A stretch of 52,355 nucleotides of DNA from Patescibacteria group bacterium (GTDB taxonomy: Bacteria; Patescibacteriota; Patescibacteriia; SG8-24), in NCBI GenBank assembly GCA_028714475.1, contig JAQTNC010000004.1:31584-83938 (forward strand). The letters are read 5' to 3'. The notes below the pieces were generated by a model, which was given only the letters and a program-made list of their open reading frames with translations, made no database searches and was not told the DNA's origin. Of this stretch, positions 31 to 45,272 are shown piece after piece. How positions within the stretch are numbered: position 1 is the first letter of the stretch; every line of letters starts with the position of its first letter. Position numbers and translations under genes: made by a program.

Positions 31-51
31 GCCCTGAGCTTGTCGAAGGGC
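31..51. repeat. CCCTGAGC/GTCGAAGGG repeat, uninterrupted copy
   Basis: The 21-base word gccctgagcttgtcgaagggc is imperfectly palindromic. Its reverse complement recurs at 15694-15741, where it is split by a hairpin, so this copy serves as the empty site. A related end, gctgcgcttcgctcaggg, opens the window at 1-18. Confidence 0.8.
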
Positions 52-353: not shown

Positions 354-480
354 TGCCGCGGGTCCTGCCGCTCCGCACCCCGGACGTGCTCCCCCTCACC
401 ATTTCCGTCGGTGAGGAAAACGGAGCGGAAATGGTGAGGGGTGCGCGCGACCGGGGTCCCCGCTCCGCGTCACCCGCGGC
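354..480. repeat. Palindromic element R3, copy 1
   Basis: The ends form the stem GCCGCGGGT/ACCCGCGGC. The last 38 bases (443-480) are the exact reverse complement of 38394-38431, and the first 22 (354-375) are the reverse complement of 38579-38600. The interior differs: here it is a 15-bp hairpin built from ccctcaccatttccg, absent from the other copy. Conserved ends with exchangeable hairpin fillings are typical of this window. Confidence 0.75.
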
Positions 481-510
481 GTCATTCTTTGTCGGGGTGG
501 TGGGTGTATG

Positions 511-559
511 CGCTCGGCCATCAAATCCCTCCGTTCGCGAACGGAGGGATGGCCTCGCG
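511..559. repeat. Element R4 (cgctcGGCC target) filled with a 26-bp palindrome
   Basis: The target halves cgctcGGCC (511-519) and GGCCtcgcg (551-559) are separated by 31 bases that contain a perfect 26-bp palindrome (525-550, core ccgttcgcgaacgg). The unsplit target cgcgaggccgagcg occurs at 45209-45222. GGCC is present on both sides of the filling. Confidence 0.7.
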
Positions 560-15693: not shown

Positions 15694-15741
15694 GCCCTTC
15701 GACAAGCCCTGAACCGTAATGGTTCAGGGCAAGCTCAGGGC
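15694..15741. repeat. CCCTGAGC/GTCGAAGGG repeat interrupted by a hairpin
   Basis: Compared with the intact copy at 31-51 (other strand), the word gcccttcgacaag|ctcagggc is split by 27 bases. These are a hairpin CCCTGAACC-gtaat-GGTTCAGGG plus a second copy of caag, so caag flanks the hairpin on both sides as a 4-base duplication. Confidence 0.75.
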
Positions 15742-15756
15742 ATAAAATACAATATT

Positions 15757-15797
15757 CCCTGAGCGACCCCGGGCCGCGAACCGGGGGAGTCGAAGGG
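15757..15797. repeat. CCCTGAGC/GTCGAAGGG repeat with a different filling
   Basis: Flanks aatattccctgagcg and cgaagggtttc are identical to those at 37821-37906, but here the interior is a single hairpin ccccgggccgcgaaccgggg. The other copy holds two unrelated hairpins. Confidence 0.7.
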
Positions 15798-20535: not shown

Positions 20536-21458
<923 letters not shown>

Positions 21459-21465
21459 AATTATT

Positions 21466-21500
21466 ATTCTAGATTCTATTTTCTATTTTCTACTTTCTAA
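21466..21500. repeat. Intergenic period-7 tandem repeat
   Basis: Five heptads (attctag attctat tttctat and two more ending tttctaa) fill most of the 43-base gap between the dockerin and cohesin genes. They are the reverse-complement type of the array at 21345. Confidence 0.75.
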
Positions 21501-21501
21501 A

Positions 21502-22578
21502 CTACCCTGTCCAATAATACGCCATGATGCTGAAATCAACTAGGTCAATTTTTTCGTCGCCGCTTAGGTGCTCTTTTTCTTTTAGAGCGAAAGCCGGGCT
21601 CAATGGTCGTTTGTACCAATAGGCGGCGATGGAGAAATCAACGATGTCTACTCGGCAATCATTGTTCAAGTCAGCCTTGACTGGGCATTTTGTTGGGGGC
21701 GTGACCAAAACAACTTCCGAGCCAACAAGAAAACTTATCGTCTTGCTGAAGGCGCTAACCTCGCCGTTTGATGTGGCTTTTGACTTTAGGAAATTCAGGC
21801 CCGTTTTAAGCACCTTGGTGTCAAAGTTGTATAAATACGCGCCGTCGGTCCCCGTTTTGATTGTCTTGGCAGGATTCTCGTCAGAATTGATATAAATAGC
21901 AACTTCTCCGCCGGGAACTGATTGTCCATAAACCGCGACGCTGTCGTCTCGAGTCACCTCACTTTTATCTGTCGATATGGTTGGAGCAATAAAAATTCCG
22001 CCTACCTTGGTGGTGGCGCCGGAACTTACGCTCATCGGAAAGGTTAGAAGAGAGGAGCGGACGCCTTTGTTATCCTCACCATATACGGAGAAAATGTATA
22101 TTCCTCCGGAGAGTCCAGAAAGGTTCAATTGAAAATTGGCGTCGCCATCGGCAACAGCTGTGGCGGCAATCAGCGCGTCTTTCAAAAGCGTCACCTTGCT
22201 CTTCGGGTAGGCACGGCCTTCAAAAATTACGCTCGTTACTGGCTCGGCATAACCGCCCCCGCCACCGCCCCCGCCACCAGAAGAGCAAGCCGCGGTGTTA
22301 AAGGTACATGAAGCAGTGCATGAAAGCGCGCCGCCGCCAAACCCTACCGAGGAGCACGACGCGCCGCCCAGATCCGAGCCGTCGCACTGCTCTCCTGTTT
22401 CTTTGATGTTGTTCCCGCAAAGATTTAATATTTCAATTTGGAAATTGGAGCTTGAAGCGGCCAAAATGGGTTTAGAAAATAGAAAGTAGAAAATAGAAAA
22501 TAGAATAAAAACAAAGAATACAGAAAACAGAAAGCGGCCAGCAGACTTCGGGGCTTTTTGGACGATACCCGGTTTCAT
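21502..22578 (-). CDS. Secreted dockerin-bearing protein
   Basis: The 358-aa protein has a long hydrophobic signal peptide (residues ~15-42). A cysteine-rich module of the DUF4215/Myxococcus type follows (CGNNIKETGEQCDGSDLGG) and then a Gly-rich linker. Two Ig-like regions come next, and a C-terminal dockerin type I pair. Loop 1, DLNNDCRVDIVD, has acidic or amide ligands at positions 1, 3, 5, 9 and 12. Loop 2, HLSGDEKIDLVD, keeps 5, 9 and 12. Dockerins bind cohesins with calcium, and two cohesin genes lie directly downstream in the same operon. Confidence 0.85.
   Translation of the reverse strand: MKPGIVQKAPKSAGRFLFSVFFVFILFSIFYFLFSKPILAASSSNFQIEILNLCGNNIKETGEQCDGSDLGGASCSSVGFGGGALSCTASCTFNTAACSSGGGGGGGGGYAEPVTSVIFEGRAYPKSKVTLLKDALIAATAVADGDANFQLNLSGLSGGIYIFSVYGEDNKGVRSSLLTFPMSVSSGATTKVGGIFIAPTISTDKSEVTRDDSVAVYGQSVPGGEVAIYINSDENPAKTIKTGTDGAYLYNFDTKVLKTGLNFLKSKATSNGEVSAFSKTISFLVGSEVVLVTPPTKCPVKADLNNDCRVDIVDFSIAAYWYKRPLSPAFALKEKEHLSGDEKIDLVDFSIMAYYWTG
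22474..22508. repeat. Period-7 repeat inside the dockerin-protein signal peptide
   Basis: Heptads agaaaat, agaaagt, agaaaat, agaaaat, agaataa encode, on the minus strand, the FSIFYFLFS part of the signal peptide. The words match those at 21345. Confidence 0.75.
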
Positions 22579-22604
22579 TTCAGAAATTTATTAAGTATTT
22601 TCAT

Positions 22605-22646
22605 CATTCTACTTTCTATTTTCTTCTTTCTAGATTCTACATTCTA
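22605..22646. repeat. Intergenic period-7 tandem repeat
   Basis: Six heptads of consensus NNTTCTA (cattcta ctttcta ttttctt and onward) occupy the gap before the dockerin gene's upstream neighbour. Confidence 0.75.
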
Positions 22647-29267: not shown

Positions 29268-30398
29268 ATGCGCCTGCTCGCCATAGAATCATCCTGCGAC
29301 GATTCGGCCATCGCCTACCTCGACGTTAACCGTCGGGGGATTCGGCGCTTGGAGCACGTTGTCGCGAGCCAGGCCATTCACGCCAAGTACGGCGGGGTGG
29401 TGCCGGAGGTGGCGGCGCGTGAGCACGCGACGACCATGCCGTTTCTGCTCGATGCCATCGCCGAGAAGGTCATTGGTTCTACGGATGGGCGGCGTTTGGG
29501 GCGGGTCGTGGACGTGGTCGCGGCGACGCGCGGGCCGGGGCTCATCACCTCGCTTAAGGTCGGGCTCGACACGGCCAAGGCGCTCACGGCGGCTTGGAAC
29601 AAGAAATTCATCGGCGTCAATCACATCGCGGGGCATATCTACTCGAATTGGTTGCCCGGCGCGGCGCTTGATCGCGCTTATGATAAACAATACCCCCTGA
29701 GCGAAGCGGAGCGGAGTCGAAGGGGTTCCAACGGCGCATCGGTTAAGGGCTTGTTTCCGGCCCTGGTTCTCGTCGTTTCCGGCGGACACACCGAATTGTT
29801 GCTGATGCGCGGCCACGGAAAATTCAAGCTTCTTGGCGCGACGCTCGATGACGCGGCGGGGGAGGCGTTCGATAAGACCGCCAAGCTCATGGGGCTTGGC
29901 TACCCTGGCGGGCCGCAGTTGTCGAAGCTCGCGGCGGCCGGAAATCCCAAGGTTTATGATTTCCCGCGACCGTTGCTCCATGAAAAGAACGACGCATTTT
30001 CGTTCGCTGGTCTGAAGACGTCGGTGCGGTATTTCCTGCGCGAACATGAGGAGCAACTTACGGACGAAAAATTCCGCGCTGACGTTGCCGCCTCGACCGA
30101 ACAGGCCATCGTGGACGTGCTTAAGAAAAAAACTGTCCGCGCCGCCGAGCGGCTGGGCGTGAAGACAATCCTGCTGGCTGGCGGCGTGGCCGCGAATAGC
30201 AAACTACGGACCGAGTTGGGCGAACTGCTGGCTGAGCGTTTGCCGAAGGCGCGTCTCGTCCTGCCGCCGCTCAAGTATTGCACCGACAACGCCGCGATGA
30301 TCGCCGTCGCCGCCTATTTCCGTGCCGAAACCGGCCATTTCGACGACTGGCGACGAGCTGATGCGGATGCGGGGTGGGAGTTGGGGAGGAGTAGTTAG
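29268..30398 (+). CDS. tsaD: tRNA N6-threonylcarbamoyladenosine (t6A) transferase subunit TsaD
   Basis: TsaD transfers the threonylcarbamoyl group to A37 of ANN-decoding tRNAs. The 376-aa form starts at MRLLAIESSCDDS; the ORF's 50 extra N-terminal residues overlap the promoter. Motifs are IHAKYGGVVPEVAAREH, metal-binding VNHIAGHIYSN (His 119 and 123), FPALVLVVSGGHTEL, DDAAGEAFDKTAKLMGLGYPGGP and LAGGVAANSKLR. Residues about 143-153 (PLSEAERSRRG) are encoded by an in-frame copy of the intergenic CCCTGAGC/GTCGAAGGG repeat. tsaE follows 142 bases downstream. Confidence 0.97.
   Translation: MRLLAIESSCDDSAIAYLDVNRRGIRRLEHVVASQAIHAKYGGVVPEVAAREHATTMPFLLDAIAEKVIGSTDGRRLGRVVDVVAATRGPGLITSLKVGLDTAKALTAAWNKKFIGVNHIAGHIYSNWLPGAALDRAYDKQYPLSEAERSRRGSNGASVKGLFPALVLVVSGGHTELLLMRGHGKFKLLGATLDDAAGEAFDKTAKLMGLGYPGGPQLSKLAAAGNPKVYDFPRPLLHEKNDAFSFAGLKTSVRYFLREHEEQLTDEKFRADVAASTEQAIVDVLKKKTVRAAERLGVKTILLAGGVAANSKLRTELGELLAERLPKARLVLPPLKYCTDNAAMIAVAAYFRAETGHFDDWRRADADAGWELGRSS
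29694..29725. repeat. CCCTGAGC/GTCGAAGGG repeat inside tsaD
   Basis: A 32-base repeat copy lies in frame in tsaD, between the metal-binding helix and the next strand, with no stop codon. It matches the ends of the intergenic copies at 31, 15757 and 37827. Confidence 0.75.
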
Positions 30399-31442: not shown

Positions 31443-31555
31443 CGACGGCCATTGCCCCTCGACAGGCTCGGGGCAGAACACGCTTTTGATACAACAGCGG
31501 CGGGACTGTCGCCCCGCCGCCTCAAATTATCAGTTTCGTTGGCGTCGCGCAACCG

Positions 31556-38037: not shown

Positions 38038-38181
38038 AAAAAAGGCAGCTCCCGCCGGGCGGACCCGCTTCCGTCGACAGCGCTCGCGCTGGATGCGTAA
38101 TTGCGCGAGCGATTGTCTCCGGAACCGGCTCCGCCCGGCGGTCGCCTCGGAAGCACCTTCCACCAACCAAATAAAAGCATG

Positions 38182-38365
38182 CGCTCGGCCTGCGGAGGCG
38201 ACACATTAGGCGTCGCCTGGCCTCGCGAAAGGACGACAAGTTGTCCGCAAGGAAGAATAATATGGAGCGGCCAATATAAGACGTGCGAAGCACACTTTGC
38301 GGAATGGATGACCTCATTCCGCGAGGCCCGGCGACAATGCCTTGTCGCCGCCCGCAGGCCGAGCG
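38182..38365. repeat. Cloverleaf-like element with two filled GGCC targets
   Basis: Outer stem CGCTCGGCCTGCGG/CCGCAGGCCGAGCG (14 bp, perfect). The left arm carries cgctcGGCC-[28-base hairpin]-GGCCtcgcg (38182-38227) and the right arm cgcgaGGCC-[28-base hairpin]-GGCCgagcg (38320-38365). The middle contains cgtgcgaagcacac, shared with 45172. No ORF of substance. It is the centre of the 878-base desert 37813-38690. Confidence 0.72.
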
Positions 38366-38393
38366 CCTACTAATAAAAAGGTTGTAAGTAGAA

Positions 38394-38600
38394 GCCGCGG
38401 GTGACGCGGAGCGGGGACCCCGGTCGCGCGCAGGTACGCCGTTTCGTCCGATATTATTACGCCGCGGAAACGGCGGGCCGAGCACGTCCGGGGGTCGGCT
38501 GCGAACTGGTGAGTAGCCGACGGGTCGCAAGGGCGACCCCGGGTCTGGCGAGCGATTTCCGATTCTTCGCGAGCCAGACGGAGCGGCAGGACCCGCGGCA
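38394..38600. repeat. Palindromic element R3, copy 2
   Basis: The ends match 354-480 inverted (38 and 22 identical bases). The interior is a chain of hairpins: cgccgtttc/gaaacggcg, gtcggct/tagccgac, gggtcgc/ggcgaccc and gtctggc/gccagac. Outer stem CCGCGGGT/ACCCGCGG. Confidence 0.75.
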
Positions 38601-44828: not shown

Positions 44829-45085
44829 GGGCGGGGCCGCCCTTACGGCGAAGCCGACCCGCTTGGCGGGGCGGCACTAAAATGCGCGGCTAAGGCCGCA
44901 ACCTATCGGCGAAAGGCACTCTATCGGACGAACCGAGCGGAGCGAGGTTCTGTCCGGTGCCTTACGGCACGCTCGGCCGCTCCAGCGGCGGCCTTCGCTC
45001 ACGTCGCCGTCCCGCGTCGCCCCCGATTTCATCGGGGGACCGAGCCGACGCGGGCGTCGAGTGGCCTTAAAGGGCGACCCCGCCC
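44829..45085. repeat. Large multi-branched palindromic element
   Basis: Outer arms 44829-44844 and 45070-45085 pair at 15 of 16 positions. Inside are hairpins gaacc/ggttc with ggac/gtcc, then cgctcGGCC-[11 bases]-GGCCttcgc (44970-44998), and cccgcgtcg...cgacgcggg enclosing cccccgat/atcggggg. Smaller stems lie near 44853 and 44883. No ORF with coding character. It is the first of three such blocks in the 906-base desert 44684-45589. Confidence 0.68.
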
Positions 45086-45130
45086 GACCTCATCTAGAAA
45101 TAAAACATTCACCCACTTAATAACCGTATA

Positions 45131-45272
45131 CGCTCGGCCGGTGCGCTCTCGTTTTTGTTGCGACATAAATCGTGCGAAGCACACCTTGCGGAAGACACAT
45201 CATCATTTCGCGAGGCCGAGCGGCGCTTAATGCGCCGCTTACGCAGGAGGTCGCGAAGCGACCGGCCGAGCG
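45131..45272. repeat. Cloverleaf-like element containing an unfilled GGCC target
   Basis: Outer stem CGCTCGGCCGG/CCGGCCGAGCG (11 bp). Hairpins gcggcgc/gcgccgc (45220-45238) and ggtcgc/gcgacc (45249-45263) lie inside. cgcgaggccgagcg (45209-45222) is the uninterrupted form of the target filled at 511, 38182 and 38320. cgtgcgaagcacac is shared with 38282. Confidence 0.7.

Follow-up and report, generated by a model that had tools for sequence, protein, structure and literature searches.

The hairpins between positions 38182 and 38365 of the window (the whole stretch of 52,355 nucleotides that was analyzed) are probably apical modules of a dispersed compound palindromic repeat, whose copies were reshuffled by recombination and grew by insertions of hairpins that duplicated their target. 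Ultra-short perfect hairpins (M9, 24 bp; M1, 23 nt) were inserted at C-NN(N)-G, with duplication of those 4-5 bases. The DNA of this genome and of its relatives was examined as sampled stretches, with crude gene calls.

Architecture of the compound palindromic repeat

The frame CGCTCGGCC-[tip of 0-60 nt]-GGCCTCGCG gave 30 exact matches in the genome (G000; 1.41 Mb in 43 contigs) and 0 in the reversed-pattern control, and the split-site frames are thus far above chance. The alignment of the copies showed that the GGCC-framed tip is the core of a compound palindromic repeat of 230-400 bp, which starts with a 5′ palindromic domain (about 100-250 bp; type A, B, C, D or E) and continues through an AT-rich linker and the GGCC-framed tip to a tail that holds one or two small hairpins. 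The linker ends around TAGTATG, with TATG, TAGG or TAAG as the last bases before the core, and 3′ of the tip a small hairpin is followed by TCCGCAAGG and often also by a GTGCTTCGCAC hairpin. About 41 copies of the composite were detected by nhmmer in the sampled DNA of the genome, about 11 of which are degenerate and lie beyond the exact frames. By the crude gene finder, no copy was placed inside a predicted gene. Because the exact frame served for the first search of the core structure, the conservation of this structure is partly by construction. The parts of this repeat in the window were as follows:

354-483, plus strand: type-A 5′ palindromic domain belonging to the copy at 511, with hairpin M7 (CCTCACCATTTCC...GGAAATGGTGAGG)
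511-559, plus strand: GGCC-framed tip with a 10-bp hairpin; the tail is degenerate and without TGCGG
38048-38145, plus strand: 5′ palindromic domain of type D, copy B; 98% identity over 233 nt with locus L016 (C5)
38182-38227, plus strand: GGCC-framed tip (core) of copy B, with tip TGCGGAGGCGACACATTAGGCGTCGCCT; from frame search and profile alignment
38228-38262, plus strand: 3′ tail of copy B, a small hairpin and then TCCGCAAGGAA; boundary approximate; from copy alignment
38277-38319, minus strand: 3′ tail of copy C, ATGAGGTCATCCATTCCGCAAAGTGTGCTTCGCAC; from copy alignment; repeat D11
38320-38365, minus strand: GGCC-framed tip of copy C, tail to tail with copy B; from frame search
38391-38600, minus strand: 5′ domain of type A, copy C (GCCGCGGGTCC...GTCACCCGCGGC), in which hairpins are nested; boundaries approximate
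44970-44998, plus strand: internal hairpin of domain C (CGCTCGGCC GCTCCAGCGGC GGCCTTCGCTC)
45131-45139, plus strand: left arm CGCTCGGCC of a truncated copy with domain C and linker (45093-45130), its tip and tail lost
45209-45272, minus strand: filled GGCC-framed tip with two hairpins, GGTCGCTTCGCGACC and AGCGGCGCATTAAGCGCCGCT

The split halves that the earlier note had described at 511-559, 38182-38227 and 38320-38365 are present in the sequence exactly as it said. Those at 44970-44998 exist as well, but they belong to the internal hairpin carried by most C-type copies and do not form a separate filled target. Similarly, the 184-base unit at 38182-38365 does consist of two facing copies, although these are element copies placed tail to tail and not the two halves of one cloverleaf. 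The supposed intact target at 45209-45222 proved to be the right end of the filled copy at 45209-45272 (C4:76792-76855 in the genome-wide frame search), with CGCGAGGCC at 45209, and it is not empty. The reverse complement of this copy reads CGCTCGGCC GGTCGCTTCGCGACCTCCTGCGTAAGCGGCGCATTAAGCGCCGCT CGGCCTCGCG, and its filling happens to start with GAGCGGCGC. The genome has three other exact occurrences of CGCTCGGCCTCGCG, all of them in coding-like DNA and none surrounded by repeat features; two of the three have identical flanks, at contig ends. In the sampled stretches of the genome, an empty composite was found neither as CGCTCGCG with the tail nor as the linker with CGCTCGCG.

As GGCC is self-complementary, its presence on both sides of a tip follows from pairing within the stem and cannot show a target duplication. 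Given this paired stem, and with no empty site in the sampled DNA, the proposal that GGCC is a 4-base target duplication was rejected. The direct repeat of the frame is CTCG: 32 of the 36 parsed copies read CG-CTCG-GCC...GGC-CTCG-CG (CA in two), where the non-palindromic CTCG leaves a TC/TC mismatch, that is, an unpaired internal loop, and the paired form GAGCG was found in 4/36. A duplication of CTCG would explain the TC/TC loop of these 32 copies, since a pure stem would have paired TC with GA. The GGCC tips may have begun as hairpin insertions at CG-CTCG-CG that left CTCG as a direct repeat, an origin that we infer, since the empty form, CGCTCGCG with the tail, was not seen among the copies.

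Some single loci showed further arrangements. At L142:14333-14486, the right arm of a GGCC-frame copy carries an inserted M9-like hairpin, CACGTCGTTCACTAACGACGTG, which separates GGCC from GAGCG. At L108 and L147 (G000 C1:110544 and C7 about 25971), domain C joins the right arm of the frame directly, as CCCGGCC-TCGCG or CCCGGCC-GAGCG, and the L108 junction is what a deletion between two GGCCTC repeats would give. Elsewhere in the window, at 21345-22646, AT-rich arrays of AGAAAATAGAAAGTAG-type repeats in inverted orientation flank ORFs.

Exchange of tips and domains among copies

The fillings of the frame are many different hairpins of unrelated kinds, and they are reshuffled between copies. 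Copies L001- and L023 have identical linkers and different tips, and L014 and L028 have nearly the same tip and different 5′ domains. The 5′ domain and the tip were not associated (p = 0.26), and any two modules were found together in each of the four possible pairings of their two commonest states. Given that tips, 5′ domains and tails occur in so many combinations, the copies of the compound repeat exchanged parts by recombination. Two composite copies on different contigs (L012:1341-1573 and L016:1342-1573) have 233 nt in common at 98% identity; the common block has its start precisely at the apex (GAAA) of a dRS3-like hairpin, and on the other side of this apex L016 carries a nested hairpin.

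The same hairpins were also found in several unrelated frames. M1 (CCCTGWACCATTACGGTWCAGGG), with 18 copies in this genome and 0 in 37 relatives, occupies the GGCC core as well as the loops of two other repeats, F1 (CCCTGAG..TCGAAGGG) and F2 (CCCCGAG..TCGAGGGG). M7 occurs in all three of these frames and also in domains A and C. The loops of F2 hold whole F1 repeats, with their own tips included.

Insertion of short hairpins with duplication of the target

F1 was listed at 70 places in the genome, a few of them overlapping, and at 0 in the controls. The empty F1 sites contain CTTG, CCTG or CGRAG, and other F1 sites hold many fillings. In the window, the following F1 and F2 sites were identified:

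32-50, plus strand: empty F1, CCCTGAG-CTTG-TCGAAGGG, with the target CTTG at 39-42
15695-15740, minus strand: filled F1, read on the plus strand as CCCTTCGA-CAAG-CCCTGAACCGTAATGGTTCAGGG-CAAG-CTCAGGG
15707-15729, within the filled F1: the M1 hairpin (23 nt), with direct repeats CAAG at 15703-15706 and 15730-15733
15757-15797, plus strand: inverted F1 partner of 15695-15740, with a different tip, CCCCGGGCCGCGAACCGGGG
29695-29724, plus strand: F1 with a short GCGGAGC tip
31455-31473, minus strand: empty F2, read on the plus strand as CCCCTCGA-CAGG-CTCGGGG

The window holds both an empty F1 and an F1 filled by M1 with CAAG on both sides. In the genome, M1 is flanked by CTTG/CTTG in both F1 and F2, and an M1 variant in F2 (L171) has CCTG on both sides. 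Within the GGCC core, M1 occurs in the TACC form and without a flanking 4-bp repeat of its own. These duplications of CTTG or CCTG around M1, and those of 4-5 bp around M9 described below, bear out the kind of event that the earlier note proposed: in this genome and in its class, short DNA that folds on itself is inserted and duplicates a few bases of its target, although the details given for the GGCC frame were wrong.

Two hairpins of other sequence were seen between short repeats. In G002, a relative of the same family, ATATGTCAATTACGAATGACATAT has CTTG on both sides (L242:5940-5990) and may be another ultra-short mobile hairpin; in this genome, CCCCTCCGTTCGCGACCGGAGGGG has CCAG on both sides (L140:14023), and its centre resembles the centres of M9 and of the tip at 511-559.

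M9, N-CACGTCGNTCGCGANCGACGTG-N, is a palindrome of 24 bp that was found in 49 of the 381 genomes of the class (41/291 genera), in 7/38 relatives and in 0 controls; it was sought as an exact pattern, and its true range is therefore wider. None was found in viral contigs. The genome under study has one exact copy (C3:80435), with CAGG duplicated. In a 306-kb sample of G002, ATTCCGGGCCGTGACCCGGAAT was found 22 times in the empty form, ATTCCGGGC-CGTG-ACCCGGAAT, and three times filled with M9 between two CGTG.

In the flanks of 76 copies of M9, collapsed where shared to 63 contexts, exact direct repeats abut the 24-mer in 40 (4 bp in 35 and 5 bp in 5). After permutation of the flanks, the mean number of 4-mer repeats was 3.3 and the maximum 12, compared with 35 observed, and at other offsets there was at most 1 match. 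The repeats start with C and end with G in 33/40 and have the form T..A in five. The bases outside the duplication showed no excess of pairing at positions 1-5 and a weak excess at positions 6-7. The targets of M9 are therefore generally not hairpins, and targeting of hairpin apices in general was rejected. At L286, M9 lies within the centre of an older M9, with CGCG duplicated. With its two abutting 12-bp inverted arms and its duplication of 4 (sometimes 5) bp, M9 has a MITE-like trait; single M9-like arms also occur in the 306 kb of G002, a sample in which no parent transposon was identified. M9 is a mobile hairpin of extremely small size that duplicates its target, and it is not a product of a RAYT or IS200/605 transposase.

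In G012 and G122 (L292 and L319), M9 duplicated CCTG and lies at the apparent 3′ terminus of a tRNA gene. At L280 and L357, the right flank of M9 is the complement of the left (CACG..CGTG and CTCG..CGAG), which parallels the GAGCG form of some GGCC frames.

Mechanism, alternatives and comparison with known systems

Staggered cutting followed by gap filling is the established origin of fixed-length duplications in transposition, and such duplications around one hairpin sequence, at many sites that are unrelated to each other, point to a staggered cut 4-5 bases apart. A putative insertion enzyme would make this cut, the host repair would fill in the gaps, and the enzyme would act in trans; no transposase for the hairpins was found in the genome. 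Insertions of M9 and M1 also lie in the loops of other palindromes, giving hairpins within hairpins. Insertion into loops that contain C-NN(N)-G would build nested hairpins, the tips of which would then be reshuffled by recombination between copies. It is plausible, if finely balanced, that a class-wide mobile element consisting of the 24-bp palindrome only, which an enzyme in trans would insert at C-NN(N)-G and whose target of 4-5 bp would be duplicated, also drives the growth of nested repeats such as the GGCC element.

The tips might instead have been lengthened and replaced by template switching or slippage only, through the copying of other palindromes in replication and with no true insertion; the flanking repeats would then be microhomologies or selected symmetric internal loops (GA/GA, GNA/GNA, GGCC/GGCC). 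Several results fit this unlikely alternative. In the first global test of hairpin flanks, only GNA/GNA was clearly enriched (10 vs 3.7, p = 0.0035), and the CGNAG flanks of other fillings of F1 were equal in 7/16, as shuffling predicts; together, these support symmetric loops over fresh duplications for that subset. X and X′ of F1 are uncorrelated, and the arms are perfect, with compensatory pairs. SbcD, a subunit of the hairpin nuclease, was not detected in this genome or in 27/28 relatives, and the 28th (G014) gave only a match below the curated cut-off, compared with matches in 13/14 control genomes. Loss of SbcD would lead to tolerance of palindromes, but it is found throughout the sampled class and does not set this genome apart. 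A high density of hairpins as a peculiarity of this genome was also rejected, because the relatives G002 and G008 are similar. Around all hairpins, the global test gave no excess of direct repeats without the 1-base offset; it appears at the 1-bp offset that C..G repeats need, with 7 exact 4-mer repeats vs 0.8 expected in G002 and 4 exact 5-mer repeats vs 0.4 expected in this genome. Against template switching alone stands M9, a single 24-bp sequence that 49 genomes carry at unrelated positions, next to exact duplications of 4-5 bp at a fixed offset, and most of whose targets are not palindromes outside the duplication (positions 1-5).

Less likely still, and rather improbable, is a conserved structured RNA, e.g., a large 3′ UTR element or a terminator, with freely varying stems. 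The folding is strong (z about -4 for some copies), TGCGG and TCCGCA are conserved in their complementarity, and by the crude gene finder about 10/17 intergenic regions with the composite are convergent vs 41/192 overall. However, there was no Rfam match and only two tRNAs were found in the window, the conserved pairs are invariant (RNAalifold), and covariation supports nothing outside the tips. The composite was also absent from 28 relatives, every one of another genus. Spread of the composite outside this genome was rejected: its pattern gave only scattered single matches in GC-rich genomes and none in viral contigs.

To our knowledge, Y1 transposition makes neither a staggered cut of this kind nor a target duplication, and a RAYT or IS200/605 transposase, for which the earlier note had suggested a search, was thus unexpected. 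A REP/REPIN-type element moved by such an enzyme is very improbable: the palindromes are intergenic, the inverted F1 pairs lie about 15 nt apart, and the stems contain mismatched bases, like those of E. coli REPs (PMC8266576), but PF01797 (Y1_Tnp) had 0 matches in this genome and did match the control genomes, and 40/63 contexts of M9, the hairpin on which this was tested in place of the GGCC tips, have exact 4-5 bp duplications.

Insertion of short hairpins with target duplication, the reading preferred here, was compared with known systems. REP, REPIN and BIME sequences with RAYT are intergenic palindromes with inverted pairs and heterogeneous loops (PMC3733652, PMC3116915). Bacterial REPs have a Y1 enzyme and tags, whereas here there was no Y1 match, no GTAG or CGTC tag was seen at the feet of the M9 or M1 hairpins, and a target duplication is present. 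The GC clusters of yeast mitochondria (GC42) are short GC-rich hairpins with short direct repeats that resemble target duplications, and their palindromes merge and shuffle (PMC4478555). The GC42 repeats are AG or ACT, in contrast to exactly 4 or 5 bp, mostly C..G, here; moreover, the present element is a near-perfect palindrome of 24 bp in a bacterial chromosome. In the organelle genomes of Volvox, palindromes are often inserted in other palindromes and form elaborate repeats of up to 633 nt; in the parts of that article drawn on here, the mechanism of spread is left open and no fixed-length duplication is mentioned (PMC2670323). Neisserial intergenic mosaic elements and dRS3, ATTCCC-N8-GGGAAT, form mosaic intergenic arrays (PMC3898611). 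The F3 frame of this genome, ATTCCCGCGAAAGCGGGAAT, has the dRS3 pattern with a variable centre, a likeness that concerns F3 only and not the GGCC element. We know of no report of dRS3 receiving hairpins with target duplication.

A 24-bp palindrome with a target duplication of fixed length is near the smallest mobile DNA conceivable, because there is no room between its two arms. M9 supplies filled and empty sites, opens to test how intergenic palindromes of bacteria arise and become nested, and points to an insertion enzyme common to many families of small-genome bacteria. The small dispersed repeats (SDR) of Nostoc are bacterial mobile repeats of only about 21-27 bp, and they may be the closest precedent in bacteria. 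PMC3116915 cites them as SDR. The 24-base hairpins of this genome and its relatives are among the smallest mobile DNAs known.
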